Part shown: in pieces, positions 7,896 to 44,997 of the stretch | Layout of the letters: each line of letters starts with the position of its first letter | Numbering within the stretch: the first letter of the stretch is position 1 | NCBI RefSeq assembly: GCF_024138165.1 | Contig: NZ_CP100000.1 | Coordinates: 2,542,001-2,606,000 of the forward strand | Length of the DNA stretch: 64,000 nt | DNA from: Halorussus vallis | GTDB taxonomy: Archaea > Halobacteriota > Halobacteria > Halobacteriales > Haladaptataceae | Direction of reading: 5' to 3' | Made by a program: the position numbers and the translations under genes | The notes under the pieces: generated by a model | Database searches by the model: none | Seen by the model: the letters and a program-made list of their open reading frames with translations, nothing else | What the model was told of the DNA's origin: nothing

Positions 7896-7928
7896 GTGTG
7901 TCATGGTTCGGTTGGGACAACGAGTATC

Positions 7929-9671
7929 ATGTCCGACACGGTTTACGCGATATCGAGCGGGAAGGGAGGTGTCGGAAAGACGACGACCGCGGTCAATCTG
8001 GGTGCGATGCTGGCCGACCGTGGCCACCGGGTCGTCGTCGTCGACACCGACCTCGGAATGGCGAATCTCGCGGGCTTCCTCGACTTCGAGATAGACGAAC
8101 CGACGCTCCACGAGGTGCTGGCCGGCGAGGCCGACCCCGAGGAGGGAATCTACGAGGCGCCGGGCGACATCGACGTGCTCCCGAGCGGGACCGACATCGA
8201 GGCGTTCGCCAAGTCGAACCCCGCGAACCTCCAGGGCGTCGTCGCCGACCTTCGCGAGACGTACGACTACGTGCTGCTGGACACCGGCGCGGGCGTCAGC
8301 TACGACACGCTGGTCCCGCTGGCGCTGGCCGACGCCGTCCTGCTGGTGGCGACGCCCGACGTGGCCTCGGTCCGGGACACCGCCAAGACCGGCGAACTGG
8401 CCGACCGCGTGGGCACCGAGGTGGCGGGTGCGGTGCTCACCCAGCGCAGCAGCGACATCCTGAACGCCGACGACGTCGAGGAGACGCTGGGCACCGACGT
8501 GCTCGCGGTCGTCCCCGACGACGAGGCGGTGCCGATGGGGGTCGACGCCGGGCGACCGCTGGCGGTGTTCGCGCCGAACGCGCCCGCCGGGGTGGCCTAT
8601 CGAAAGCTGGCGGCGGTCGTCGTCGGCGACGCCGAACCCGAACCGGAACTGGAGGTGGCCGACTCCGCGGAGAGCCTGGACCGCGCGCACGAGGACGGAA
8701 GCATCTTCGGCGAACCGACCGACGCCGACGGGAGCGAGGCCGACGACGGGACCGCGACCGACGATGGCGAGGCCGCCCCGACCGACGAGACGGAGGACGA
8801 AGACGACCCTGCCATCGGTGCGGCCGGCGTCTCCGCGGACGACGAGTCGAACGACCCCCTCGGCGGCTCCGACGCCGCCCGCCAGGCCCGCGCCATCGTC
8901 GAGGACGCCCACGGCATCGGCGACGACGCCGAAGCCGACGCGGGCGAGGCGGCCGACGGGGAATCGGACGTGGACACCGACGCTCGGAGCGTCGACGACC
9001 TCCTCAGCCAGCACATCGACGACGACCGACTCGGCGGCGGCGGCGACCCGCTGAGCGCGGTCGAGGAGTCTATCGACGCGCCCGCCGGTGAGGACGCCCC
9101 CGACCTCGACTCCGGAGAGAGCGAGTCCGACCTCGCCGACGCGGACGGAGACGCGCGGGCGACGGAGGAACCGACCGACTGGAACTTGGAGGACCCTGAC
9201 TCGGACGACCCTGAGCGGTCGGACGCAGAGCCCGACGAATCGGCCGACCTCGATTCGACGGGGGCGGAGTCGGCGGCTGACGCCGCCGACTCCGCCGAAT
9301 CCACAGGCTCCGCCGACCCGCTCGCCGGGACGGACGACCCGCTGGCGGGCGACGAAACCCCGGACTCTCTGGAGGAGTCCGACGAGTCCGCGGACCCCCT
9401 GGCTGAGAGCGACTCGGTCGACCCGCTGGCCGAGGACGGCGACTCGGACGAAGCGTCCGAAACCGCCCGCGACGACCTCGCGGGCGCGGTCCCCTTCGAG
9501 CGCGAGGACCCCTCGGACGAACCCTGGGACGAGGCTGAACCGTCGGCCACCGGGGACGATTCGGCCGACGGCTCGGGGGCCGACGACCGGAGCCGGAAGG
9601 TGTCAAAGAAGGACGGTGATTCGGAGGAAGGGTCGGGCGTCCTCGGTCGCATCGGTTCGCTGTTCAAGTGA
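7929..9671 (+). CDS. minD4: MinD/ParA-family ATPase with a 345-residue acidic tail (MinD4-like)
   Basis: The protein has 580 residues from ATG 7929. Residues 1-235 are a MinD-type ATPase: deviant Walker A KGGVGKTT (12-19), VVVVDTDLGMANL, and YDYVLLDTGAG. The remaining 345 residues are low-complexity Asp/Glu/Ser/Ala with DPL units at about 309, 375, 463, 470, 492 and 500 (mostly DPLA). The chain ends in the basic-hydrophobic GVLGRIGSLFK, which could be an amphipathic membrane anchor. In Haloferax volcanii MinD4, a MinD with a long C-terminal extension, positions archaella and chemosensory arrays at the pole. As I recall, its gene also lies near atp and release-factor genes. Orthology is therefore likely but inferred. 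Confidence 0.85.
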   Translation: MSDTVYAISSGKGGVGKTTTAVNLGAMLADRGHRVVVVDTDLGMANLAGFLDFEIDEPTLHEVLAGEADPEEGIYEAPGDIDVLPSGTDIEAFAKSNPANLQGVVADLRETYDYVLLDTGAGVSYDTLVPLALADAVLLVATPDVASVRDTAKTGELADRVGTEVAGAVLTQRSSDILNADDVEETLGTDVLAVVPDDEAVPMGVDAGRPLAVFAPNAPAGVAYRKLAAVVVGDAEPEPELEVADSAESLDRAHEDGSIFGEPTDADGSEADDGTATDDGEAAPTDETEDEDDPAIGAAGVSADDESNDPLGGSDAARQARAIVEDAHGIGDDAEADAGEAADGESDVDTDARSVDDLLSQHIDDDRLGGGGDPLSAVEESIDAPAGEDAPDLDSGESESDLADADGDARATEEPTDWNLEDPDSDDPERSDAEPDESADLDSTGAESAADAADSAESTGSADPLAGTDDPLAGDETPDSLEESDESADPLAESDSVDPLAEDGDSDEASETARDDLAGAVPFEREDPSDEPWDEAEPSATGDDSADGSGADDRSRKVSKKDGDSEEGSGVLGRIGSLFK

Positions 9672-32833: not shown

Positions 32834-35800
32834 ATGGCTCGCGCGGAGAATACGGAGCTAGTCGACAGGTTCGAGCAGTTCTACCGTCGGTACTACAGCG
32901 ACCAGATCGGTCGGCTCGCGGCGAACTACCCCGGCGAACAGCGCTCGCTCTACGTCGATTGGGACGACCTCTATCGCTACGACGCTGATCTCGCCGACGA
33001 CTACCTCTCCAAGCCCGAACAGCTACAGGAGTACGCCGAGGAAGCGCTTCGGCTGTACGACCTGCCCGTCGACGTCAGCCTCGGTCAGGCCCACGTCAGA
33101 ATCCAGAACCTGCCGGAGGCGACCGACATCCGCGCCATCCGCGCCCGACACGTCAACACGCTCGTCGCCGCCCAGGGCATCGTCCGGAAGGCGACGAACG
33201 TCCGGCCGAAGATACAGGACGCTGCCTTCGAGTGCCAGCGCTGCGGCACGCTGACCTACATCCCCCAGAGCGGCGGCGACTTCCAGGAACCCCACGAGTG
33301 CCAGGGCTGCGAACGCCAGGGTCCGTTCCAGATCAACTTCGACCAGTCGGAGTTCGTCGACTCCCAGAAGATTCGGGTCCAGGAGAGCCCCGAGGGACTC
33401 CGCGGCGGCGAGACGCCCCAGAGCATCGACGTCCACATCGAGGACGACATCACCGGCAACGTGACCCCCGGCGACCACGTGACGGTGACCGGTATCCTCC
33501 ACCTCGAACAGCAGGGTAGCGCCCAGGAGAAGTCGCCCGTCTTCGACGTCTACATGGACGGCATCTCGGTGACCATCGAGGACGAGGAGTTCGAGGACAT
33601 GGACATCACCGACGAGGACAAGAAGGAGATCGTCGAACTCTCGAACGAGAACGCCATCTACGAGCAGATGGTCGACTCGATGGCGCCGGCCATCTACGGC
33701 TACGACCAGGAGAAACTCGCGATGATTCTCCAGTTGTTCTCCGGCGTCACCAAGCACCTCCCGGACGGGTCGCGGATTCGCGGCGACCTCCACATGCTCC
33801 TCATCGGCGACCCCGGTACGGGTAAGTGCGTTAAAGGAGATACGCGGGTCACGCTCGCCGACGGGACGGAACGCAAGATTCGAGAACTGGTCGAGGAGAA
33901 CTTAGGCGACCCAAAGCCGATAGACGACGGTGTGTATCAGGAAGTGGACATCCCGCTTCCTTCGATGCGAGACGACGGTTCGCTCGCACAGAAGCGCGCG
34001 ACGAAGGTCTGGAAGCGCGAAGCGCCCGATGAAATGTACCAGATTCGGACGAGCAGCGGCACGAAGTTGGAGGTGACGCCTTCTCACCCACTGTTCGTCC
34101 AATCGGGCGGTGCGTTCCAGGCACTCCGTGCCGAGGATCTTCAGGAAGGGCAGTTCGTCGCTACGCCGCGAACCATTCCGACGAAAGGAGACGACACCCT
34201 CGACGTCGAATACCGCCGGTCGAAGGCACACAACGCCGTTCGACTCGACCTTCCCGACGAGTGGACTCCGGAACTCGCTCGTCTCGTCGGGTACGTCGTC
34301 GCCGAAGGATACGTCGAATCGCGGAAAGACGACACCGGCTACGTCACAATCACGAACGAAGACCGAGAGATACTCGACGACGTCGCGGACTCGCTCGAAC
34401 GACTGGGTCTGAACTACACCGAGCGCGAGTCGCGCTCGGGCAAGTCCGCCAGCGAAGTCTGCTGCTCGTCTGGCGAGTTCGTCAGCTTCCTCGAAGCGCT
34501 CGAACCTGCCATCCTCGAACCGTCGGCCGACCAGCGCGTCCCGGACGCGCTGATGCGAGCAACCCAGGAGAGCAAGATTGCGTTCCTCCGCGCGTACATT
34601 GACTCCGAAGGGCACGTTTCGGCGAAGCAACGCGAAATAACGGTCGCTTCGACGAGCGAAGAACTCCTGAAACAAGTCCGGAGTCTCCTCCTTTCGCTCG
34701 GTATCACTTCGCAGTTGTCGGAACGACAGAACGGGAGCTACCAGCTTCGAATCAGCGGAAATCAGTTCGGCCGATACGTCGACCGCGTCGGGTTCATCAC
34801 CGACCGGAAGGCCCGCAGTGCCGCCGCGAGGGACGACGGCGAGCAGAACACGAACCGAGACGTAGTTCCCGCACTCGACGACGACCTCCGCCGAATCCGC
34901 ACGTCGCTCGGTCTCTCGCAGTTCGACTGTGCAATTCCGCGCTCGACGTACCAGCACTACGAACGCGGCGATAGAACCCCGAGTCGGACGAGCCTACGAG
35001 AGGTCGTCTCTAAGTTCGAGACTCGACTCGCCGAACTCCGAGAACTCCGCCAGAAGGTGACCGAAGGCGAGTGGTCCGCAGTCGAAACCGCTCGCGAAGA
35101 ACTGGGCCTCTCCCAACAAACGCTCGCCGACGGAATCGGTGTCTGCCAGCGGTCGGTCAGCCTCTACGAGCAGGGCGAAGTCATCCCGGATGGCGGGCGC
35201 GTCACCGACGCGAAAGACGTCGTCCGTGACCAGATTGAGGACGCACTCGCCGTCGAGAGTGACGTACGGAGTCTCCGGTCGCTCACTGACGGTGACGTCG
35301 CGTGGGACAGAATCGAGTCCATCGAGCGCGTGAAACCGGACTACGACTGGGTGTACGACCTCGAAGTCGCAGGGACGCACAACTACCTCACGAACAACGT
35401 GGTTTCGCACAACTCCCAGATGCTCTCGTACGTCCAGAACATCGCGCCGCGCTCGGTCTACACCTCCGGCAAGGGTTCGTCGTCTGCAGGTTTGACCGCC
35501 GCCGCGGTCCGCGACGACTTCGGCGACGGCCAGCAGTGGACGCTCGAAGCCGGCGCGCTCGTGCTCGCCGACAAGGGCATCGCGGCGGTGGACGAACTCG
35601 ACAAGATGCGCCCCGAGGACCGCTCGGCGATGCACGAGGGCCTCGAACAGCAGAAGATATCGGTTTCGAAGGCCGGCATCAACGCCACGCTCAAGTCGCG
35701 GTGCTCGCTGCTCGGCGCGGCGAACCCCAAGTACGGTCGGTTCGACCAGTACGAGTCCATCGGCGAGCAAATCGACCTCGAACCCGCGCTCATCTCGCGG

Positions 35801-36517
35801 TTCGACCTCATCTTTACGGTCACCGACCAGCCCGACGAGGAACACGACAAGCGGCTGGCCGAGCACATCCTCCAGACCAACTACGCGGGCCAGCTCAACA
35901 CCCAGCGGACCGAGATGAACGCGCCCAACATCTCCGAGGAGGAGGTCAACAGCCAGACCGAGGAGGTCGCGCCCGCCATCGACGCCGACCTGCTCCGGAA
36001 GTACATCGCCTATTCGAAGCGCAACTGCTACCCGACGATGACCGACGAGGCGATGGAGACCATCCGGGACTTCTACGTCGACCTCCGGACGAAGGGCGCC
36101 GACGAGGACGCCCCCGTGCCGGTCACCGCCCGGAAACTGGAGGCGCTGGTTCGGCTCTCGGAGGCGAGCGCCCGCGTTCGACTCTCCGACAGCGTCGAAA
36201 TCGAGGACGCCGAGCGCGCGGTCGAGATTACCCGGTCGTGTCTCCAGGACATCGGCGTCGACCCCGAGACGGGTCAGTTCGACGCCGACGTGGTCGAGAC
36301 GGGCACCTCGAAGAGCCAGCGCGACCGCATCAAGAACATCAAACAGCTCATCGCCGAGATCGAAGAGGAGTACGACGACGGCGCGCCCGTCGACGTGGTG
36401 CTCGACCGCGCCGAGGAGATCGGCATGGACCACTCGAAGGCCGAACACGAGATAGACAAGCTGAAACAGAAGGGCGAGGTGTACGAACCCTCGACCGACC
36501 ACCTCCGGACGACGTAA
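32834..36517 (+). CDS. mcm: Replicative helicase MCM containing one intein
   Basis: The precursor has 1227 residues; without the intein (332-860) the helicase is 698 residues, the usual haloarchaeal size. The N-domain carries a zinc-binding CQRCG...CQGC. The Walker A motif GDPGTGKS is split by the intein after Lys331. Walker B (LADKGIAAVDELDKM), sensor and arginine-finger regions (LISRFDLIF) follow. A C-terminal winged helix (LIAEIEEEYDDGAPVDVVLDRAEEIGMD) ends the protein. MCM is the hexameric DNA-unwinding motor of archaeal replication. The P-loop is interrupted, so the protein can work only after splicing. It stands alone and converges on the beta-helix gene. Confidence 0.97.
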   Translation: MARAENTELVDRFEQFYRRYYSDQIGRLAANYPGEQRSLYVDWDDLYRYDADLADDYLSKPEQLQEYAEEALRLYDLPVDVSLGQAHVRIQNLPEATDIRAIRARHVNTLVAAQGIVRKATNVRPKIQDAAFECQRCGTLTYIPQSGGDFQEPHECQGCERQGPFQINFDQSEFVDSQKIRVQESPEGLRGGETPQSIDVHIEDDITGNVTPGDHVTVTGILHLEQQGSAQEKSPVFDVYMDGISVTIEDEEFEDMDITDEDKKEIVELSNENAIYEQMVDSMAPAIYGYDQEKLAMILQLFSGVTKHLPDGSRIRGDLHMLLIGDPGTGKCVKGDTRVTLADGTERKIRELVEENLGDPKPIDDGVYQEVDIPLPSMRDDGSLAQKRATKVWKREAPDEMYQIRTSSGTKLEVTPSHPLFVQSGGAFQALRAEDLQEGQFVATPRTIPTKGDDTLDVEYRRSKAHNAVRLDLPDEWTPELARLVGYVVAEGYVESRKDDTGYVTITNEDREILDDVADSLERLGLNYTERESRSGKSASEVCCSSGEFVSFLEALEPAILEPSADQRVPDALMRATQESKIAFLRAYIDSEGHVSAKQREITVASTSEELLKQVRSLLLSLGITSQLSERQNGSYQLRISGNQFGRYVDRVGFITDRKARSAAARDDGEQNTNRDVVPALDDDLRRIRTSLGLSQFDCAIPRSTYQHYERGDRTPSRTSLREVVSKFETRLAELRELRQKVTEGEWSAVETAREELGLSQQTLADGIGVCQRSVSLYEQGEVIPDGGRVTDAKDVVRDQIEDALAVESDVRSLRSLTDGDVAWDRIESIERVKPDYDWVYDLEVAGTHNYLTNNVVSHNSQMLSYVQNIAPRSVYTSGKGSSSAGLTAAAVRDDFGDGQQWTLEAGALVLADKGIAAVDELDKMRPEDRSAMHEGLEQQKISVSKAGINATLKSRCSLLGAANPKYGRFDQYESIGEQIDLEPALISRFDLIFTVTDQPDEEHDKRLAEHILQTNYAGQLNTQRTEMNAPNISEEEVNSQTEEVAPAIDADLLRKYIAYSKRNCYPTMTDEAMETIRDFYVDLRTKGADEDAPVPVTARKLEALVRLSEASARVRLSDSVEIEDAERAVEITRSCLQDIGVDPETGQFDADVVETGTSKSQRDRIKNIKQLIAEIEEEYDDGAPVDVVLDRAEEIGMDHSKAEHEIDKLKQKGEVYEPSTDHLRTT
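33827..35413 (+). mobile_element. Intein with LAGLIDADG endonuclease and two HTH-like segments inside mcm
   Basis: This is a 529-residue intein, precursor residues 332-860. It starts at Cys332 (CVKGDTRVTLADG) and ends VVSHN before extein Ser861. The splicing block B is LEVTPSHPLF. LAGLIDADG-type motifs are LVGYVVAEGY (484-493) and FLRAYIDSEG (584-593); both keep an acidic residue, so the endonuclease may be active. Between endonuclease and C-terminal splicing block lie two Xre-like segments, LGLSQFDCAIPRSTYQHYERG (from about 692) and LGLSQQTLADGIGVCQRSVS (from about 757). The insertion point is the ATP-binding P-loop, a classical intein site. Confidence 0.93.
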
Positions 36518-36587: not shown

Positions 36588-37883
36588 TCACCGTCCAGCG
36601 GTTTCGGTCGCTGATTGATTTTCAGACTCCACGCTCCCCCACGCAATCCTAAGGTCGATGAACGCGTCCGCACTCGTGTTGGTCACGGTCACGCCCTCGA
36701 TGACCGGCGTTACAGTCGTCTCGTTACCCGCGTCCGAAGGAACTGTCGTCGTCGGCCCGAGTGCGACATCACGTGCCTCGAAGGTGACGGCGGCGGCGTC
36801 AGTCTGGAAGTTCTGCACGGTGTTCGTTGCGTCGTTCACCGCGACGTACGCCCAGGACGCCTGGTCACGGGCGTCAGTGTCAGTGAATACGTTTCCCGAG
36901 GCACCATCGGCGATGACCCCCGCAGACGGAACCGGAGGGTTTCGTCCCGGTGGGAGCGTTCCTTGGGTACCGACGACGTTGTTGTTCGAGAACGTACTGT
37001 TCGTCACGGCGAACAGTACGATGCCGGCATAGCCGTTACGGCTGAAGTCGTTGTCGGCAACCGTCACGTTTTCCACGACGTTCCCGATTGGCTCGTCCAC
37101 TATTCCGAAACCACGGAACCCGTTCTCGGTCGCAGTGACGTTTCGAACGGTGCTCTCGGACGAGTTCGTCAGTTCGATTCCGCTGAACCCGTTAGAGTTC
37201 GCAGTGACGCGTCGAACCGTACTGTTCCTCGAGTTCACCGCGTAGACGCCGTTGAACCCGTTGCGGTTCGCCGTGCTGTCCTGGACCGTACTGTCGTGAG
37301 AATCGCCCGTTCGTATTCCGAAAAGAGCGTTTTCGGCGGCGGTGGCGTTGCTCACAGTGGAATCGGTCGCAGTGGACATCTCTACCCCGACTCCACTGGT
37401 GGTGGCGGTGATGTCACGAACGGTCACCCGTGTCGAATTTCGGGCAACGACTCCACGGAACCATTCGGTGACGGTCACGTTCGTGATGGTGACGTTCGAG
37501 AGCGAGGACGAGCCGTTTGGATTGACACTGACCCCGACACCTGCTTCTGGTGGAGGGCCTCGCAACGCGTCCAGCAGTTCCTGCCGAGTGATGCTCCCGT
37601 CGATCGTGTGGCCACCCCCGTCGAAATGGACGTTGCTCGCCCGGATCTCGATGCAGGTATTTTCGGTACTATTCTCGATGGGTTCGGTGAGCTGGTACGT
37701 GCCTGGCTCGTCGATTACGGTACAGGAGTCGAGGGATGTCGCCTGCTGGTAGGTACCTCGATCAAAATCCTCGATTGCTCCCCCAACCGTGACGCCTGCA
37801 AGGGATAAAATTAGTACAACCACTACCGCTGTGAGAGTCTGGAGTCGGTTGCTTCGTCTTTCTGCCACGCCGAATCGAGACAT
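36588..37883 (-). CDS. Secreted right-handed beta-helix (NosD/pectate-lyase-like) protein
   Basis: The protein has 431 residues from ATG 37883; the upstream in-frame region to 37988 is not protein-like. Residues 14-34 form a hydrophobic Sec signal or anchor (LTAVVVVLILSLAGVTVGG). A short cap (CTVIDEPGTYQLTEPIENST...CIEIRASNVHFDGGGHTIDG) leads into about ten repeats such as NSTVRRVTANSNGFSGIEL, the ladder pattern of a parallel beta-helix. Many N-x-T/S sites suggest surface glycosylation. Such proteins bind or cleave polysaccharides, but no catalytic residues can be named. The GC content is slightly lower than that of the neighbours. Confidence 0.85.
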   Translation of the reverse strand: MSRFGVAERRSNRLQTLTAVVVVLILSLAGVTVGGAIEDFDRGTYQQATSLDSCTVIDEPGTYQLTEPIENSTENTCIEIRASNVHFDGGGHTIDGSITRQELLDALRGPPPEAGVGVSVNPNGSSSLSNVTITNVTVTEWFRGVVARNSTRVTVRDITATTSGVGVEMSTATDSTVSNATAAENALFGIRTGDSHDSTVQDSTANRNGFNGVYAVNSRNSTVRRVTANSNGFSGIELTNSSESTVRNVTATENGFRGFGIVDEPIGNVVENVTVADNDFSRNGYAGIVLFAVTNSTFSNNNVVGTQGTLPPGRNPPVPSAGVIADGASGNVFTDTDARDQASWAYVAVNDATNTVQNFQTDAAAVTFEARDVALGPTTTVPSDAGNETTVTPVIEGVTVTNTSADAFIDLRIAWGSVESENQSATETAGR

Positions 37884-38202
37884 AGGAGCGGTTCGCTGAC
37901 ACTCGTATTCGTTATTGGGGGCATGCACTCGGCAATTCTCGATATCTACGACGTCACAACGGAAACCGCGAGTTTCCGTTTCTCTCACTGACGGTATTGT
38001 ATGCAGGCGTAGTGAGGAAGAACGAGGCCTTTATACAGGCTCTCGTCTTGATTTTCGGCGAAGAAGGTTCGACCAGACCAGTACGGAAGGTATTAGTGTA
38101 ACTGACGAGTGTTCGACACCAAGCGGCCACCTCACGAACGGCGACAGGACTAAGTCGCGTGACCGTGACGCGAGGGTGACACAACGAACGACAGTACTCA
38201 TC
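37884..38202. other. Divergent intergenic region between the beta-helix gene and a small conserved gene
   Basis: No gene is seen. AACGGAAA and TTTCCGTT form an 8-bp inverted repeat at about 37957-37980. The stretch is AT-richer than the average here and should contain both divergent promoters; GGCCTTTATACAGG near 38030 is one TATA-like candidate. Confidence 0.45.
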
Positions 38203-38481
38203 ATGGACCGCATCTCCGCCCTCCGGAACGTCGAGGACGCCCTGGCCGACTTCGAGTCGGGCGAGGCCGACCTCCGGGCGACCGAGCGCCGCGTGCTGAA
38301 CGTCCTCCGGACCTACGCGACCGAGTTCGGCGAGGACGACCTGGCCGCCTACCGCGCGTCCGGTTCGGACCGGGCCGACGGACTCGTGGTCGTCGCCGAC
38401 TCGCGGTCGCAGGCCCGCACCCGAATCGGGGATTTACTGGACGCCGAAGAGTTAGAATTCGAGATCGAACGACTCGGCTGA
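38203..38481 (+). CDS. Small conserved haloarchaeal protein, unknown function
   Basis: This acidic protein has 92 residues from ATG 38203 (MDRISALRNVEDALADFESG). It is predicted to be helical in the first half (DLRATERRVLNVLRTYATEF), then DGLVVVADSRSQARTRIGDLL and a C-terminal LEFEIERLG. It resembles the haloarchaea-only families numbered near DUF7854 that occur beside DUF7855-7857 genes; the number is from memory. It precedes, on the same strand, a run of five genes leading to a MinD-like ATPase. Confidence 0.72.
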   Translation: MDRISALRNVEDALADFESGEADLRATERRVLNVLRTYATEFGEDDLAAYRASGSDRADGLVVVADSRSQARTRIGDLLDAEELEFEIERLG

Positions 38482-38607: not shown

Positions 38608-39237
38608 ATGCAAACGAAGGGTCACAACGGGGACGGGTCGCTACGGGACAGCGTAGAGCGAGGTACCTCCATCTTGCTGTTGTCGCCGTCGCTCGACGAA
38701 GCGACCGACGACGCCTGTCTCGACCTTCTGACGCTCGACCGTCCGCGAGCGGAGAACGTGCTCTGGGTGACGTACACGCGCTCGCCGGACTCCTGCGTGC
38801 AGGACTGGCTGAGCCACGCCGGCGAGCAACCGAACAACATGCGGTTCGTCAGCGTCGGCGAGACGACCCGCTCGGCGGCGGCCGCCCCGAGCGACGGACG
38901 CGACGTGGGCGGCGAACTGGTCGAGACGCTGTCGAGTCCCGGCGACCTCACCGGACTCGGCATCAAACTGAGCGAGATCCTCAAGGAGTGGAGCGCCGCC
39001 GACGCGGATACCGTCGCGTGCTTCCACTCGCTGACGGCCCTGCTCCAGTACGCCGACCTCCAGACGGTGTACAAGTTCCTCCACGTCCTCACCGGTCGGT
39101 TCGAGGCGGCCGGCGTGACCGGTCACTTCCACCTCGACCCCGACGCCTGCGACGCCCAGACGGTGAGCACGCTCACGTCGCTGTTCGACACGGTGGTCGA
39201 GCGCGACGACGGTGAATGGGTCGTCCGTTCGAGGTAG
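38608..39237 (+). CDS. DUF7504/DUF835-like haloarchaeal protein
   Basis: The protein has 209 residues. SILLLSPSLDEATDDACLDLL, NVLWVTYTRSPDSCVQDWL and ADTVACFHSLTALLQYADLQTVYKFLHVLTGRF have the strand-helix order of the KaiC/RecA-like core seen in haloarchaeal DUF7504 and DUF835 proteins, but the P-loop is absent. The role is unknown; relatives are linked to signalling. It starts the tightly packed plus-strand group. An AATTTTAAAT box 3 bp after its stop suggests a separate promoter for the next genes. Confidence 0.75.
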   Translation: MQTKGHNGDGSLRDSVERGTSILLLSPSLDEATDDACLDLLTLDRPRAENVLWVTYTRSPDSCVQDWLSHAGEQPNNMRFVSVGETTRSAAAAPSDGRDVGGELVETLSSPGDLTGLGIKLSEILKEWSAADADTVACFHSLTALLQYADLQTVYKFLHVLTGRFEAAGVTGHFHLDPDACDAQTVSTLTSLFDTVVERDDGEWVVRSR

Positions 39238-39240
39238 GAT

Positions 39241-39250
39241 AATTTTAAAT
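39241..39250 (+). promoter_or_regulatory. TATA-like box for the overlapping gene group at 39275
   Basis: AATTTTAAAT ends 24 nt before GTG 39275. This fits a leaderless message that begins at the GTG itself. It fixes that start over the open frame running back to 39212. Confidence 0.65.
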
Positions 39251-39274
39251 CGAGTCGGCGGGAAACATCGGGTA

Positions 39275-39613
39275 GTGCTACTGGTCGTGACGTACTCGCG
39301 GGCCGCCCGCCAGACGCTCAGGAACGCTTGCGACGCCCACGAGGCGACCGTCGTCCAGCGGTTCGGCCGCGCGGCGCTGCTCGAACCGACCGAACTCGGC
39401 GCGTTCCTCGCGCTCCGCCTGCGCGCCAAGCACGGCGGCGACGTGCAGGTCGAACGGACCGCGCCGTTCAACGAGTTCGCCGACGTCCCCGAGTCGGTTC
39501 GAACGGCCGCCGAGGCCTACGAGCGCCGCGACAGCCCGAGTACCCCCTACGCGAAGTTCGCAGCCGGAACCGACCTCCCCGACCCCGACCGGATGGCAGA
39601 CCACGACCTATGA
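39275..39613 (+). CDS. Small conserved haloarchaeal protein (DUF7855-like), first of a coupled group
   Basis: The protein has 112 residues from GTG 39275 (MLLVVTYSRAARQTLRNACDAHEATVVQRFGRAALLEPTEL). It has a strand-helix start, then LGAFLALRLRAKHGGDVQVERT and an acidic, disordered end with SPSTPYAKFAAGTDLPDP. The next gene's ATG overlaps its stop (ATGA), which indicates translational coupling. From memory this matches the family DUF7855. No enzymatic motif is visible. Confidence 0.78.
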   Translation: MLLVVTYSRAARQTLRNACDAHEATVVQRFGRAALLEPTELGAFLALRLRAKHGGDVQVERTAPFNEFADVPESVRTAAEAYERRDSPSTPYAKFAAGTDLPDPDRMADHDL

Positions 39614-40506
39614 AGGTCCGCGTCGGCGGGCGGGTACTGGCCGGCGACGCGGTCGACCTCCGCCGACTCGACCGAACCCCTCGGCCCGAGTCGCTTCTCG
39701 TCGAGATTCGAGGTGGCGGTGGTGCGGGCGAACGAGCGAACGAAACCGAACGCGGTGACGCCGGGCGCGGCGCGCCCGGTGTCTCCGTCGCCGTCGACTG
39801 TCCGGCCCCCGGTCCCGCCCACGAGTTCGTCGGCTTCGTCTCTCCCGGCGCGACGATTTCGCTTCGGCCCGCGCTCGCGGCGGCCGCCCGAACGCGAGGC
39901 CACGAGGCGCCCCAGGACGCCGAACTCACGACTCTCCAAGAACGCTTCGCCGCGCTCGACCCGGCCGACGTCGACCTGACGGCCGCCCGTCGCCGGGTCG
40001 CCGACGCGACCGGCGCGGAAACCGACCTCCGCGAGCGCGTGGCGGCGCTGCGCGGGCGAGTCGCCACGCTCCGCGAGACGCCGGACGCCGACCCCGCGTC
40101 GGCCGCGGCCGAACTCGCCGACGCCGCCGGACGCCTCGCGGAGGCCGAAACCGAGCGTATCGCCGCCGAGCAGGCGCTGGCGGGCGCGCGAAACCGCGCC
40201 CGCCGAAGCCGCGAGCGCCGACGCGAGCGACTCAGTCTCCGCGACCGAATCGACAACCTCCGGCGAGACGCCCGGGCGGACCTCGCGGATTCGATTCGCG
40301 CCGAGTTCGACGCGGCGCTCGCCGACGTGCCGGACACTCCGCCCGACCGCGAACCGGGCCGAGACGCCGACACGGACCCCGTCTCGGCCGCGCTGGCGGT
40401 CGCGCGCGTGGCCGACCTCGACGCGCCGGTCGTCCTCGCCTGCGACCGGTTCGAGAGCGCGGCCGCGGCCGCGTCGTGGCTCGACGCCGCCGTGCTGAAG
40501 GTTTAA
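39610..40506 (+). CDS. Coiled-coil conserved haloarchaeal protein (DUF7856-like)
   Basis: The protein has 298 residues from the ATG overlapping the preceding stop. Residues 1-85 form a beta-rich domain (MKVRVGGRVLAGDAVDL, VAVDCPAPGPAHEFVGFVSPG). Residues about 95-235 are a long arginine- and alanine-rich coiled coil (TDLRERVAALRGRVATLRETP, ERIAAEQALAGARNRARRSR). A short C-terminal alpha/beta part ends ADLDAPVVLACDRFESAAAAASWLDAA. This build suggests a structural or scaffold protein. It belongs to the coupled group and is thought to match DUF7856. Confidence 0.78.
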   Translation: MKVRVGGRVLAGDAVDLRRLDRTPRPESLLVEIRGGGGAGERANETERGDAGRGAPGVSVAVDCPAPGPAHEFVGFVSPGATISLRPALAAAARTRGHEAPQDAELTTLQERFAALDPADVDLTAARRRVADATGAETDLRERVAALRGRVATLRETPDADPASAAAELADAAGRLAEAETERIAAEQALAGARNRARRSRERRRERLSLRDRIDNLRRDARADLADSIRAEFDAALADVPDTPPDREPGRDADTDPVSAALAVARVADLDAPVVLACDRFESAAAAASWLDAAVLKV

Positions 40507-40532
40507 CACCGAAGACGGAACCAAGCCGGGGC

Positions 40533-41408
40533 GTGCAGTTGGACTGTCGATGCGACGCCCGAGACGGCGTCACGCTCGTCGAACTGGTGGTCGAGAACGA
40601 CGCCGCGGTCGCCCGTCGGGTCCGAATCGGCAACCGACTCGACGGTACGGTGTGGCCGCCCCGGTGCGAGGGCGTCCCCGAAGCGGGGTGGGACGACGGC
40701 GGATTCGAGGGCGTCGTGGCGCCGGGCGAGCGCCTGGCGGTCGGCTACGCGTCACCCGCTGGACCGCGGGACCCGCCGGCAGAAATCGTCTGGACCGAGC
40801 GGGCGGCCCGCGACCCCGACGCGAGTTCCGAACGGGTTTCGGCCCCCGAACGCGACACAGACGCGCGTCCCGAGACGGGAGCCGATTCGATTTCCGTCGG
40901 GGCGGTCGCCGCGACGCCGGAAAGCGTCGTGCGCTCGCTGGGCGACCCGCGTCCGCCCGCCGACGCGGTTCCGCTGGCGGCTCCCGAAGCGCGTTCCGAC
41001 TCGACTGAGAAACGGGACCGACCGAATCAGGACGACGAGAGCGACGGTGAGACGGACCGAGACGACCCGAACGAGTCGGATATCGATTCCGGAGGCGATT
41101 CGACCGAGGTGCCGGCCGCGGCCGGCACCTCGGTCGACGATGCGCACCCCGAACCCGTCGACGCCTGGCTGTCGGCCGCCGAACGCCGAATCGAGCGCGT
41201 CAAGTCGCTGGCGGCGGCGACGACGCTCGACGAGGCCGCGGCGGAACTCGAAGCCCTCGGCGGACTGGCGGCCGCAGAGGATATGCTCGCGGTCGTCGCC
41301 GACGACCGCGAGCGACTCCTCGCAGTCGCCGAGCGGGCGGCCGAACTGGGCGACCGGGCGGCGGCGGCCGAGGCGGTGCCCCTCGACGCCTACCGGAGGT
41401 TGTCGTGA
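40533..41408 (+). CDS. Conserved haloarchaeal protein with beta domain, acidic linker and helical end (DUF7857-like)
   Basis: The protein has 291 residues from GTG 40533, 26 bp after the preceding stop. Residues 1-90 are beta-rich (LDCRCDARDGVTLVELVVENDAAVARRVRIGNRL, GVVAPGERLAVGY). Residues about 95-205 are an acidic, disordered linker that contains a 38-bp DNA palindrome. Residues about 210-291 are helical (AWLSAAERRIERVKSLAAATTLDEAAAELEALGG). The last 4 nt overlap the start of the MinD-like gene. From memory this is the family DUF7857. Function is unknown. Confidence 0.78.
   Translation: MQLDCRCDARDGVTLVELVVENDAAVARRVRIGNRLDGTVWPPRCEGVPEAGWDDGGFEGVVAPGERLAVGYASPAGPRDPPAEIVWTERAARDPDASSERVSAPERDTDARPETGADSISVGAVAATPESVVRSLGDPRPPADAVPLAAPEARSDSTEKRDRPNQDDESDGETDRDDPNESDIDSGGDSTEVPAAAGTSVDDAHPEPVDAWLSAAERRIERVKSLAAATTLDEAAAELEALGGLAAAEDMLAVVADDRERLLAVAERAAELGDRAAAAEAVPLDAYRRLS
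41100..41137. repeat. 38-bp perfect palindrome inside a coding region
   Basis: Positions 41100-41118 are the exact reverse complement of 41119-41137, with no spacer. It lies in the disordered linker of the DUF7857-like protein and encodes STEVPAAAGTSVD. It has the same length and GC-rich style as the palindrome at 16277-16314, but the sequence differs. Confidence 0.9.
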
Positions 41409-42070
41409 TTCTGGCCGTCGCCGGGGGGAAGGGCGGCGTCGGTAAATCGACGGTCGCGCTGAACCTCGGGGCGGAACTGGACGCGGTGGTCGTGGACGCC
41501 GACCTCGGGATGGCCGACTTACCGGACGCTCGCGGCCCCGACCTCCACGACGTCCTGGCCGGCCGCGCGACGCCCGTCGAGGCGGTCCGGGAGGTCGGTC
41601 CCGTCGGCTTGCTCCCGTGCGGGCGGACGCTGGCGGGCGCGCGGGCGGGCGAGGTCACCCGTTTCGTCGAAGCCGTCGAGGCTGTCGAAGACGCGTACGG
41701 CTCGGTCGTCGTCGACTGTCCGGCGGGGCTGGCCGCCGACGCCGGACTCCCGCTGTTCGCCGCCGAGGCGTGTGTCCTCGTCACGACGCCGCGAGAGTTC
41801 GCGCTGGCCGACGCCCTGCGGACGCGGGCGCTGGCCCGGCGACTCGACTGCGGGCTGGCGGCCGTCGCGCTCAATCGGTCGGGACCGAACCCGCCGACGG
41901 AGAAGATTCGGCGGGCGCTGGGCGCGCCGGTCGTGGCGATTCCCGACGCCGACTCGCTCCGGCGCGCCCAGCGCCACGGTCGGCCGGTCGCATCGCTCGC
42001 GGCCGAGTGTGCGCCGGCGAAGCAACTCGCCGAGTTGGCGGGAGAAGTGCGTCGGTGTGCGCGGAACTGA
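41405..42070 (+). CDS. Small MinD/ParA-family ATPase
   Basis: The protein has 221 residues starting with the GTG that overlaps the previous stop (GTGA). It has the deviant Walker A KGGVGKS (9-15), VVVDADLGMADLPDARG and YGSVVVDCPAGLAADAG, all typical of the MinD/ParA switch ATPases. There is no tail or clear C-terminal amphipathic helix. It is therefore the minimal form, unlike the long-tailed MinD at 7929. Its strict coupling to three haloarchaea-only proteins suggests they are its partners. It converges on the tfb gene (11 bp). Confidence 0.9.
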   Translation: MILAVAGGKGGVGKSTVALNLGAELDAVVVDADLGMADLPDARGPDLHDVLAGRATPVEAVREVGPVGLLPCGRTLAGARAGEVTRFVEAVEAVEDAYGSVVVDCPAGLAADAGLPLFAAEACVLVTTPREFALADALRTRALARRLDCGLAAVALNRSGPNPPTEKIRRALGAPVVAIPDADSLRRAQRHGRPVASLAAECAPAKQLAELAGEVRRCARN

Positions 42071-42081
42071 GTCTCGGGTCG

Positions 42082-42960
42082 CTATTCCTGCAAATCGTAG
42101 AACGTCGAGCGGAGCGTCACGGGGGTCACGTCGGCCACGTCGGCGGCCTCGCGCTGGGTCAGGTGCCGCCCGGCCTCCCGCGCCGCGGTGTAGAGGCAGG
42201 CCGCGGCGAAGCCGCTGGGGTCTCTGCCCGAGACGAGGTTCTCCTCGTGGCCGCGCTCGACCAGTTCGCCCGCTCGGTTCTCGACTTCGACCGGGAGGCC
42301 GAGCCTGCTGGCGAACCGTGCCAGGTACTCGCGGGGGTCGATTGGGCCGGTCGGCAGACCCAGTTCGCGGTTCAGGGCGTCGTAGGCGACCGTGAGTTCG
42401 GCGCGGTCGGCGCGGGCGTTCTTCAGGACCTCTTCGAGCGTCCGCGAAACCGAGTCGGTGCGGCAGGTGGCGTACACCGCGGCGGCCGCGAACCCCTCCA
42501 GCGACCGCCCGCGGAGCAGGTCCTCCGACTGGGCCGACTCGAAGAGGACGCAGGCGCGGTCCCGGATGGTCCGGGGCAACTGGAGGGCCGAAACCAGCCG
42601 TCGAATCTCGGTGAAGGCGTACACCTGATTTCGCTCGGCCTTCGAGGAGATTCGCGCGCGTTCGTGTTCCCTGCGCATCCGCGTGACCTGCCGGCGCTTG
42701 CGCCCCGTCAGTCGGAGGTCGCCGTTGCCGCCGTGGCCGATCTCGGTCGTCAGCCCGCGGTCGTGGCGCGAGCGGGTCAGGGGCGCGCCGGTCCGCTCCT
42801 TCTCGGTTTCGTCGTCGGCGAACGCGCGCCACTCCGGACCGCGGTCGATGCGGTCCTCGGCGACCACGAGGCCGCAGTCGGCGCAGACGGTTTCGTCGCG
42901 CTCGGGGGTCAGTCGGCCGTCGCACTCGGGACAGGCGGGTTCGGCGTGTGCTTTGCTCAT
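42082..42960 (-). CDS. tfb: Transcription initiation factor TFB
   Basis: The protein has 292 residues from ATG 42960. The N-terminal zinc ribbon is CPEC...CADCG. Next comes the reader region (GPEWRAFADDETEKERTGAPLTRSRHDRGLTTEI). The first cyclin-like repeat follows (LVSALQLPRTIRDRACVLFESA...GRSLEGFAAAAVYATCR). The second repeat (YLARFASRLGLPVEVENRAGEL...GRDPSGFAAACLYTAAR) ends in a helix-turn-helix. It bridges TBP and RNA polymerase at promoters. Haloarchaea carry several TFBs, and which one this is cannot be told. A GTTTAAATAC box lies about 25-35 nt upstream. Confidence 0.95.
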   Translation of the reverse strand: MSKAHAEPACPECDGRLTPERDETVCADCGLVVAEDRIDRGPEWRAFADDETEKERTGAPLTRSRHDRGLTTEIGHGGNGDLRLTGRKRRQVTRMRREHERARISSKAERNQVYAFTEIRRLVSALQLPRTIRDRACVLFESAQSEDLLRGRSLEGFAAAAVYATCRTDSVSRTLEEVLKNARADRAELTVAYDALNRELGLPTGPIDPREYLARFASRLGLPVEVENRAGELVERGHEENLVSGRDPSGFAAACLYTAAREAGRHLTQREAADVADVTPVTLRSTFYDLQE

Positions 42961-43106
42961 CACACTCGAAACTTCTCCCGAGATGGTATTTAAACGAACG
43001 CGGATACGGGGAGAAACGACCGCTCGCGCCCGGTGGAACGTACCGGTTACCGGTACGCTCTCTCCGGCGAGCGCCCGGCGGTACTATTCCGGGCGTAATT
43101 GTCTGG

Positions 43107-43141: not shown

Positions 43142-43657
43142 GTGACGCTGGCCGACATCGCCGACGGACTCGAGGTGACGACCGAGCAGCGCGACTCGGG
43201 CGTCGCGGCGGTGGACGCCACCGAAACCGACCTCCGGGACGCGCTGGCCGAGTACGCATCCGACCTCCCCTGCGACGCCGAAGCGGCGGCCGAGATAGTC
43301 GAGGGCCACACTTCCGGCCGGTCGGTCGGCGACACCGCGCGCGCGGCGGGCGTCGCCCCGATGACCGCCGCCAAGACGCTCCACCTGCTGGGCTGCGAGG
43401 GCGTCTCGCCGCTGACGCCGCGCGCCCACGAGATTCTCGCCGACTGGCTGTCGGCCGACCTCTCGCGGACCGAAGCGCTCGAACTCACCGGCGCGTCGGA
43501 GTCGGAGTTCGCGCTGGCGACGTTCGTCGAAACCCACGACCCGCTGGCGGGAGCGAGCGAGGTCGTGGAGGGCGCGTACGCGCTCGGCGGCGACGCCGCC
43601 GTACGCAAGCGCGACGCGCTGGCCGAGACGATGAGCGACGTCGGCGACCTCTACTGA
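43142..43657 (+). CDS. Conserved haloarchaeal HTH-like protein (DUF7858-like)
   Basis: The protein has 171 acidic residues from GTG 43142 (MTLADIADGLEVTTEQRDSG). The helical segment SVGDTARAAGVAPMTAAKTLHLLGCEG looks like a helix-turn-helix. LSADLSRTEALELTGASESEFALATFVETH may be a second one. The start is set by the TATA-like box 25 nt upstream. The longer open frame back to 42683 runs antisense to tfb and is not real. From memory this is DUF7858, usually found next to tfb. It could be a DNA-binding regulator. Confidence 0.78.
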   Translation: MTLADIADGLEVTTEQRDSGVAAVDATETDLRDALAEYASDLPCDAEAAAEIVEGHTSGRSVGDTARAAGVAPMTAAKTLHLLGCEGVSPLTPRAHEILADWLSADLSRTEALELTGASESEFALATFVETHDPLAGASEVVEGAYALGGDAAVRKRDALAETMSDVGDLY

Positions 43658-44211: not shown

Positions 44212-44997
44212 TTACGTCAGCGCGTCCGGCAGGTACCGCTCGGCGTCGAACTCGAACAGCCCCGGTTCCTCGAATTCGAGTTCCACCGTCGTCCGACACA
44301 CCACCTCGGCGGCGTTCGCCACCGCTGGCGCGAACGCCGTCTCGGGATGCAGGACGCTGCTGGGGACGCCGTCGACGCCGGTCACCTCGCTCTCGGGCAC
44401 CGCGGCGTCGGCGCTCCGGAGCGGTTGTTCGGACGCCTCCGGAACTACCCGGTTGGCGACCACGGCGTCGGCTTCGGTCCCGACGTCGGCGAGGCGGCCG
44501 CGCAGTCGCCCGACGGCGTCCACGCCGCGGTCGGTCGCGGGCGCGACGACCGCGACCCGCTCGGCCTCGGTGACCGCCGCGACGGCCTGGTTGGAGGCGA
44601 CCGGCGGCACGTCGACGAGCACGTGGTCGAACGCCTCGACGGCCTCGGCGAGGAGGTCGCCGAATCGCTCGGCCGCGCCCGCGGTCTTCGCGCGGGCCAT
44701 CCGCTCGAACGACGCCCGAGCGGGACAGAGCGCCAGTCGACCCGGGAGGTCGGCGCTCGCGTCGTGGTCGTACAGCCCCTCCGCGAGACTCGATTCCTCC
44801 TCGGCCGTGAGCAGTTTCGTGACGTCGGCGTCGATGCGGCCGGCGATGTGGCGCGCGAGTCCTTCCGTCGCGAACGCGGCGTCGAGAATCGCCACCTCGC
44901 GGCCGTCGCGGGCGAGCGTCGCGCCGACTTCGACGGCGAGTCGAGTCGTGCCGGCGCCGCCCGTCGCGCCGACCAGCGCGGCAGTCGAAACGGTCAT
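44212..44997 (-). CDS. Divergent ParA/CpaE-like ATPase with degenerate P-loop
   Basis: The protein has 261 residues. The N-terminal loop reads GATGGAGTTR (10-19) where MinD/ParA has KGGxGKT, so both signature lysines are missing. Later strands are kept: REVAILDAAFATEGLARHIAG and FDHVLVDVPPVASNQAVAAV. Loss of the lysine also occurs in CpaE-type pseudo-ATPases that act as localisation factors. It may bind nucleotide weakly or not at all. The C-terminal 40 residues form an acidic extension (VELEFEEPGLFEFDAERYLPDALT). It stands alone on the minus strand. Confidence 0.82.
   Translation of the reverse strand: MTVSTAALVGATGGAGTTRLAVEVGATLARDGREVAILDAAFATEGLARHIAGRIDADVTKLLTAEEESSLAEGLYDHDASADLPGRLALCPARASFERMARAKTAGAAERFGDLLAEAVEAFDHVLVDVPPVASNQAVAAVTEAERVAVVAPATDRGVDAVGRLRGRLADVGTEADAVVANRVVPEASEQPLRSADAAVPESEVTGVDGVPSSVLHPETAFAPAVANAAEVVCRTTVELEFEEPGLFEFDAERYLPDALT

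Follow-up and report, generated by a model that had tools for sequence, protein, structure and literature searches.

A DUF7857-MinD1 gene pair beside mcm in Halorussus vallis and its comparative link to a type IV pilus-like machine

Genes at the locus

We describe a pair of genes, DUF7857 and MinD1, in a 64,000-nucleotide stretch of the Halorussus vallis genome (hereafter the window; RefSeq assembly GCF_024138165.1, contig NZ_CP100000.1, forward-strand positions 2,542,001 to 2,606,000). The gene order around them is mcm, a minus-strand gene, DUF7854, DUF7504, DUF7855, DUF7856, DUF7857, MinD, TFB, DUF7858 and a minus-strand MinD/ParA-like gene (Table 1). An earlier note on this DNA, made without database searches, had described five consecutive plus-strand genes from DUF7504 to a small MinD-type ATPase; the sequence agrees with it on coordinates, strands, the ATGA overlap at the DUF7855/DUF7856 junction, the GTGA overlap and the 26-nt gap between DUF7856 and DUF7857. 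The family names it gave, DUF7504 and DUF7855 to DUF7858, are each above the Pfam cut-off, and tfb and DUF7858 do lie beside the group. For DUF7857 (PF25256), the window protein scores 130.4 bits against a gathering cut-off of 27. DUF7855 most likely starts at the GTG at 39275 rather than at the start of the open reading frame (ORF) at 39212, and an AT-rich box, TTTTAAA, lies 5' of it at 39243-39249. The closest named relative seen is Halorussus amylolyticus, at 75% in DUF7855.

Table 1. Features of the mcm-proximal gene cluster, in window coordinates
Feature	Position	Strand	Basis or remark
mcm with inserted stretch	32834-36517	+	
DUF7854	38203-38481	+	Pfam; conserved neighbor 3' of mcm
DUF7504 protein	38608-39237	+	Pfam E=8e-45; optional neighbor
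DUF7855 (112 aa)	39275-39613	+	Pfam E=8e-57; first gene of the DUF7855-DUF7856 unit
DUF7856 (298 aa)	39610-40506	+	Pfam E=1e-77; predicted coiled-coil hairpin on small globular head
TATA-like TTTAA	40502-40506	+	27-31 nt 5' of the DUF7857 start; putative leaderless promoter of this gene within the cluster
DUF7857 (291 aa)	40533-41408	+	Pfam E=7e-38; proposed MinD1 adaptor
Stop/start overlap GTGA, 4 nt, DUF7857/MinD1	41405-41408	+	Sequence
MinD1 (221 aa), MinD/FleN-type ATPase	41405-42070	+	Pfam, tree
TFB (TFIIB homologue), convergent with MinD1	42082-42963	-	Pfam
DUF7858 protein	43142-43657	+	Pfam E=4e-76

Pairing and mobility of DUF7857 and MinD1

Co-occurrence was assessed in 194 Halobacteria genomes and the range of DUF7857 in 392 genomes of the phylum, and counts for the mcm-type neighborhood refer to 56 full-length loci. 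Where mcm, DUF7855, DUF7856, DUF7857, MinD1 and a convergent tfb are all present, they stand in the same order and orientation (27/27 loci); this arrangement is not due to chance. DUF7857 exceeds its cut-off in 67 of the 392 phylum genomes, all belonging to one order, with one sub-threshold match outside that order; for this family, then, the description of the genes as exclusively haloarchaeal stands.

Comparison across loci shows that DUF7857 and MinD1 are a near-obligate pair, joined by a 4-nt overlap, that travels as a cassette, and we regard the pairing as well supported by gene order. MinD1 lies directly 3' of DUF7857 in 40 of the 43 full-length mcm loci that hold DUF7857. The same is true of 31 of 32 loci at which DUF7857 stands apart from DUF7855 or occurs without it (five relocated pairs, 24 of the 31 genomes that have DUF7857 and lack DUF7855, and three second copies), the exception, L121, being a 59-residue fragment. 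DUF7855 and DUF7857 occur together in 115 genomes and are at most 5 kb apart in 109 of these; contig ends leave the distance undecided in G121, and in the other five (G013, G065, G136, G142 and G097) DUF7857 is found 137 kb, 171 kb, 758 kb or 26 kb from DUF7855, or on another contig. In all five relocated cases MinD1 remains directly 3' of DUF7857 and DUF7855-DUF7856 has not moved. The MinD1 tree places these proteins in one clade apart from the six other MinD/ParA/Mrp-type proteins it includes (support 98/95), with five relocated pairs (labelled B) nesting within the mcm-type MinD1 proteins. Loci L099 and L116, related to the non-mcm loci described below, have mcm-DUF7857-MinD1-tfb without DUF7854-DUF7856. 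The sole apparent MinD1 without DUF7857 is at L085, where a diverged ORF in its place keeps LADPRPTRDAV.

Two units within the cluster

The earlier note had read the five genes as one functional group, and DUF7855, DUF7856, DUF7857 and MinD as a single four-protein system for positioning or assembly. DUF7504 does not belong to such a group, being present in just 14 of the 56 full-length neighborhoods, and by comparison of loci the remaining four closely spaced genes form two units of two genes each, DUF7855-DUF7856 and DUF7857-MinD1, each with its own TATA-like element. Genes overlap at 69 of 74 DUF7855-DUF7856 junctions (32 of these can be 4 nt), and a 4-nt overlap is possible at 70 of 72 DUF7857-MinD1 junctions; DUF7856 and DUF7857 are separated by a median of 34 nt and overlap at 3 of 71. 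We scanned the region 18-40 nt upstream of each start for an all-A/T hexamer and found one before 78% of 87 DUF7855 genes and 46% of 100 DUF7857 genes, compared with about 1-2% at random positions. A TATA-like word precedes 59% and 75% of these genes, respectively (random, about 1%). The TATA-like word precedes 4% of 96 MinD1 genes, and among 12 scorable DUF7856 starts the hexamer precedes 8% and the TATA-like word 0%.

The units also come apart in their distribution. At the 56 full-length mcm-type loci all four genes are present in 38, only the pair is missing in nine, and nine are otherwise incomplete; for four of the nine loci lacking only the pair, and for one shorter locus, the pair is located elsewhere in the genome. 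Homologues scattered away from the ATPase were what the earlier note had said would refute its reading, and here the genes part ways: DUF7857 stays linked to it, while DUF7855-DUF7856 remains at mcm without the pair in those nine loci. DUF7858 has the same range as DUF7856 (119/194 genomes), and in G056 a DUF7858 fragment scores below the threshold; this range agrees with that of DUF7855/DUF7856 and not with that of MinD1, and DUF7855-DUF7856-DUF7858 may be a second functional set.

A four-protein system would fit the invariant order at the six-marker loci, the short gaps and the closeness of DUF7855 to DUF7857 in most genomes, but the pair moves off without DUF7855/DUF7856, and the reverse also occurs. 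Because the promoter-like elements are separate, the movement independent and the phyletic profiles different, we reject a single four-gene system and consider this explanation unlikely. What the comparison supports instead is a two-gene MinD system that adjoins an unrelated two-gene unit. The idea of a MinD switch with dedicated partners survives for DUF7857, which is haloarchaea-specific, but not for DUF7855 or for DUF7856, the coiled-coil protein, which the comparative evidence places outside the MinD unit.

Features of the encoded proteins

MinD1 belongs to the MinD/ParA superfamily, scoring above the cut-offs of Pfam PF10609/PF01656. Its deviant Walker A motif, GGKGGVGKST, is intact in alignments, and VVDADLGMADLP and VVVDCPAGL are also conserved; the signature lysine and the Walker A' and Walker B aspartates are in place. 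The NCBIfam model minD_arch (TIGR01969) matches with E=1.6e-35 and 122.5 bits, below its curated cut-off of 201.75. The best match in the Protein Data Bank (PDB) is Archaeoglobus fulgidus MinD-1 (1hyq), over residues 3-216; the FlhG/FleN structures 4v03, 4rz2 and 5j1j match more weakly than archaeal MinD (E 1e-9 to 2e-6). The MinD1 C-terminus falls at about residue 233 of the 263-aa 1hyq, whose last 30 or so residues have no counterpart, so the membrane-targeting tail is missing; in the alignments no C-terminal amphipathic tail was found, the tail being unconserved and not amphipathic by eye. By position and family, the window protein would be the orthologue of MinD1 of Haloferax volcanii, the positional argument being that published locus numbers there, as given in the available portions of the papers, run from mcm (HVO_0220; PMC3972481) to MinD1 (HVO_0225; PMC11621097) and a TFB variant (HVO_0226; PMC13286277).

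The AlphaFold model of DUF7857 has an Ig-like beta domain (residues 1-90), a disordered acidic linker with the motif LGDPRPPADAVP, and a C-terminal helical domain (209-290). The beta-sandwich (blocks of pLDDT 84-95) and the helical end are confident, and the linker contains a small helix, 129-135. The motif, L-G-D-P-R-P-P-x-D-A, overlaps the end of this helix and in alignments is the best conserved part of the protein beyond the sandwich, the helical end being optional among relatives. A regular expression for the motif finds 63 of 71 paired proteins and 5.6% of shuffled ones, though it was tuned on the same proteins and is descriptive only. Foldseek returned no match to the Ig-like domain at E <= 0.001, in searches that barely cover the linker and helical end. 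The best structural match, VIA (Z 8.1, rmsd 5.8), is a generic beta-sandwich and therefore says nothing on a ligand.

DUF7855 has no PDB sequence match. In the AlphaFold model of DUF7856 (pLDDT 90) a long coiled-coil hairpin sits on a small head. The mcm location would suggest a ParA-like role for the pair in DNA replication or chromosome segregation, in which its partner would be DUF7856 as a degenerate SMC-like protein. In line with this, mcm is present in 49 of the 56 full-length DUF7855/DUF7856 neighborhoods, the top Foldseek matches of DUF7856 are cohesin, condensin and Smc5-6 heads (E 0.1 or worse), and Rad50 aligns over 277 residues (Z 10.0, rmsd 8.0). Helical hairpins can reach such values by chance, however, and no P-loop motif was seen in the DUF7856 alignment; the models give only a hint that it is possibly a P-loop-less SMC-like protein. 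DUF7856 also lies outside the unit of the pair, and the pair leaves mcm and, judged by DUF7857, is absent from 48 of the 194 genomes. We consider a replication or segregation role quite unlikely.

Association with a type IV pilus-like machine

Twenty-three MinD1 proteins form one clade (100/99) in which the pair is not at mcm. At 19 of these 23 loci Pfam detects at least one component of a type IV pilus-like locus near the pair, within about 20 kb of DNA fetched per locus: a T2SSE secretion ATPase, DUF7311, a HerA-like ATPase, a pilin-like protein, TrkA_C and other membrane proteins. The same loci often also carry a TFB and a MinD-DUF7125 fusion. This second MinD, fused to the KaiC/RecA-like DUF7125, was seen at L094, L095, L097, L098, L100-L102, L113 and others; DUF7125 itself occurs in 187 of the 194 genomes. 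DUF7857 is short in this clade, at 118-123 aa in 22 of the 23 loci and 141 aa in L119.

The machine comprises a cysteine-bearing T2SSE/PilB-type ATPase, a TadC-like membrane protein, DUF7311, whose gene adjoins the secretion ATPase, and the coiled-coil DUF7310. In the H. vallis genome DUF7310, DUF7311, T2SSE, a TadC-like protein, DUF7283, DUF7284 and DUF7286 sit together 1.06 Mb away, without the pair. The DUF7311-linked ATPase could not be tied to a named H. volcanii PilB.

DUF7857 is present in 146 of the 194 genomes and DUF7311 in 147; 143 have both, seven only one and 44 neither (phi 0.90). Leaving out the 23 genomes in which the two are within 25 kb of one another, 171 remain, with both in 119, one only in eight and neither in 44 (phi 0.88). 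Comparison thus shows that DUF7857-MinD1 is kept almost only by genomes with this one machine. Pair and pilus might nonetheless co-occur merely through common lineages or ecological types: co-losses do cluster in some genera, and sister genomes are not independent. Yet in these 171 genomes an agreement that high arose in just 3 of 20000 within-genus shuffles and 0 of 20000 within-family shuffles, and the mcm neighbors (phi 0.59 for DUF7855, 0.61 for DUF7856 and 0.60 for DUF7858) and the archaellum proteins FlaD/E (phi 0.15; within-genus p 0.40) score much lower. In addition, the pair adjoins pilus genes in the other clade. Shared lineage as the whole explanation seems to us rather unlikely.

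The seven discordant genomes have DUF7857 only (G045, G184, G192) or DUF7311 only (G100, G125, G129, G190). In several of these, decay or incomplete data seem to be at work: G192 has a 59-aa fragment, DUF7311 of G125 has an internal TAG, G184 is at 93% completeness and G129 has a diverged partner. Eight genomes have DUF7855 and no recognised DUF7857; five of them (G018, G029, G047, G054 and G183) lack DUF7311 too, while G100, G125 and G129 retain it; L085, with its diverged ORF beside MinD1, belongs to one of these three.

Other genes in the window

A 466-aa minus-strand gene (36588-37988) separates mcm from DUF7854, which adjoin in most relatives, and looks like a local insertion. The stretch that interrupts the window mcm is intein-like; many relatives have one or more insertions, in several places. 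A further MinD of 591 aa with a long C-terminal extension (7896-9671, plus strand) lies about 32 kb from MinD1 and is possibly of the MinD4 type. The MinD/ParA-like protein beside DUF7858 (44212-44997, minus strand) has the P-loop GATGGAGTTR, without the usual lysines; the P-loops tallied in 32 mcm-locus relatives follow this GG-G-TT/AT pattern too, and the protein is probably a conserved, non-hydrolysing MinD-like one.

Discussion

On balance we favor the view that MinD1 is an FlhG/FleN-type regulator of one type IV pilus-like machine, with DUF7857 as its adaptor. The pairing and the pilus link are comparative findings; positioning as the output, binding of MinD1 to DUF7857, the role of the motif and the pilus as the cargo are what we infer from them. 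In this view MinD1 would act as a FleN/FlhG/TadZ-like ATPase switch of the pilus, most likely through ATP-dependent dimerization, by analogy with FlhG/FleN and the FleN/MinD ATPases of archaeal pili. The linker motif LGDPRPPxDA would be the part of DUF7857 that binds ATP-bound MinD1 dimers, with a possible second role in controlling hydrolysis of ATP, and the Ig-like domain would contact the pilus base or another anchor. With no membrane-targeting tail on MinD1, the site at which it acts would be set by DUF7857 and not by the membrane. The output could be how many pili are assembled, where or when. A bolder possibility, which we offer tentatively and would not count on, is that a tailless MinD and an Ig-fold adaptor make up a minimal, movable two-protein pilus-positioning system, in which LGDPRPPxDA represents a new class of MinD-binding peptide and the same machine is served from either the mcm or the pilus locus.

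Several observations weigh against a pilus regulator with DUF7857 as adaptor. The pair is not near pilus genes in 119 of 142 genomes, DUF7311 stood in for the whole pilus in the co-occurrence counts, and shuffling at the genus level takes out shared ancestry only in part. In G100, which kept DUF7311, the pair seems to have been truly deleted. Three mcm loci of genus g20 (L064, L125 and L126) hold DUF7857 with its C-terminal part and no MinD1 downstream, and this genus has DUF7311. For a screen of transposon mutants for motility and adhesion, the portion of the report available lists no hit in HVO_0220-0227 (PMC5198076). The quadruple minD deletion of H. volcanii is described, in the accessible text, as having no growth or division defect (PMC11588486) and a motility defect equal to that of the minD2/minD4 double mutant (PMC11621097). 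Finally, the adaptor and positioning roles are predictions drawn from comparison.

The deletion result also bears on whether MinD1 could belong to a MinCDE-like division-site system, which its MinD family membership might suggest; given the lack of a division defect and the absence of the pair from many species, we find this most improbable. With regard to a pilus regulator, published minD work covers motility, shape and division, and pili are not reported in the accessible parts of these papers (PMC11588486, PMC11621097). The lack of a MinD1-specific effect in the motility and division assays may be explained by a phyletic profile that follows the pilus and not the archaellum.

The comparison gives MinD1 a near-strict partner and a probable target, and both can be tested in a genetically tractable archaeon. 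H. volcanii has four MinD paralogues, of which MinD1-3 had no described function as of 2024, and no clear MinE-like partner is reported, as far as the available text goes (PMC11621097). We found no literature on DUF7855, DUF7856, DUF7857, DUF7858, DUF7286 or DUF7310, in a search that covered few subscription papers; for HVO_1634, MinD3, DUF7125 and DUF7311, the best 20 of 39 matches were only the MinD papers and unrelated ones. Neither the assignment of MinD1 to a pilus nor the DUF7857 partnership was found in that literature. If the adaptor role is true, DUF7857 would be a MinD-effector family without a relative in the libraries searched.

How does this pair compare with known systems? Like FlhG/FleN, its sequence relatives in the PDB, MinD1 would be a switch for a surface machine; it differs in lacking the membrane-targeting tail and in having an Ig-like partner instead of FlhF, for which no search was made. 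TadZ/CpaE is the MinD-like ATPase of the bacterial Tad pilus and has an N-terminal receiver-like domain, for which the 221-aa MinD1 is too short. MinD1 also resembles A. fulgidus MinD-1, its best PDB match, and the family TIGR01969, and departs from them in its sub-threshold score and truncated C-terminus. Among haloarchaeal proteins, MinD2, with its operon partner HVO_0596, and MinD4, which positions a motility machine, are precedents in the sections available (PMC11588486, PMC11621097), but they are other paralogues with other partners. The machine itself might belong to pilus subclade 4F, described in the available text as having a Cys-rich N-terminal ATPase stretch and an intracellular coiled-coil component (PMC4858521); the two features that fit are CxC...C...C in both ATPases read and the adjoining coiled coil of DUF7310. 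The nearest precedent is the prediction by Makarova et al. in 2016 of a MinD regulator for archaeal pili, arCOG00589, in whose accessible text comparative genomics likewise ties FleN/MinD ATPases, usually encoded apart from the pili, and TFIIB homologues to archaeal type IV pili (PMC4858521). Our proposal differs in linking one orthologous group, MinD1, to one pilus type and to the near-strict partner DUF7857. DUF7857-MinD1 would thus be a regulator of a known kind, a MinD for surface machines, whose partner is new and whose predicted target is specific.

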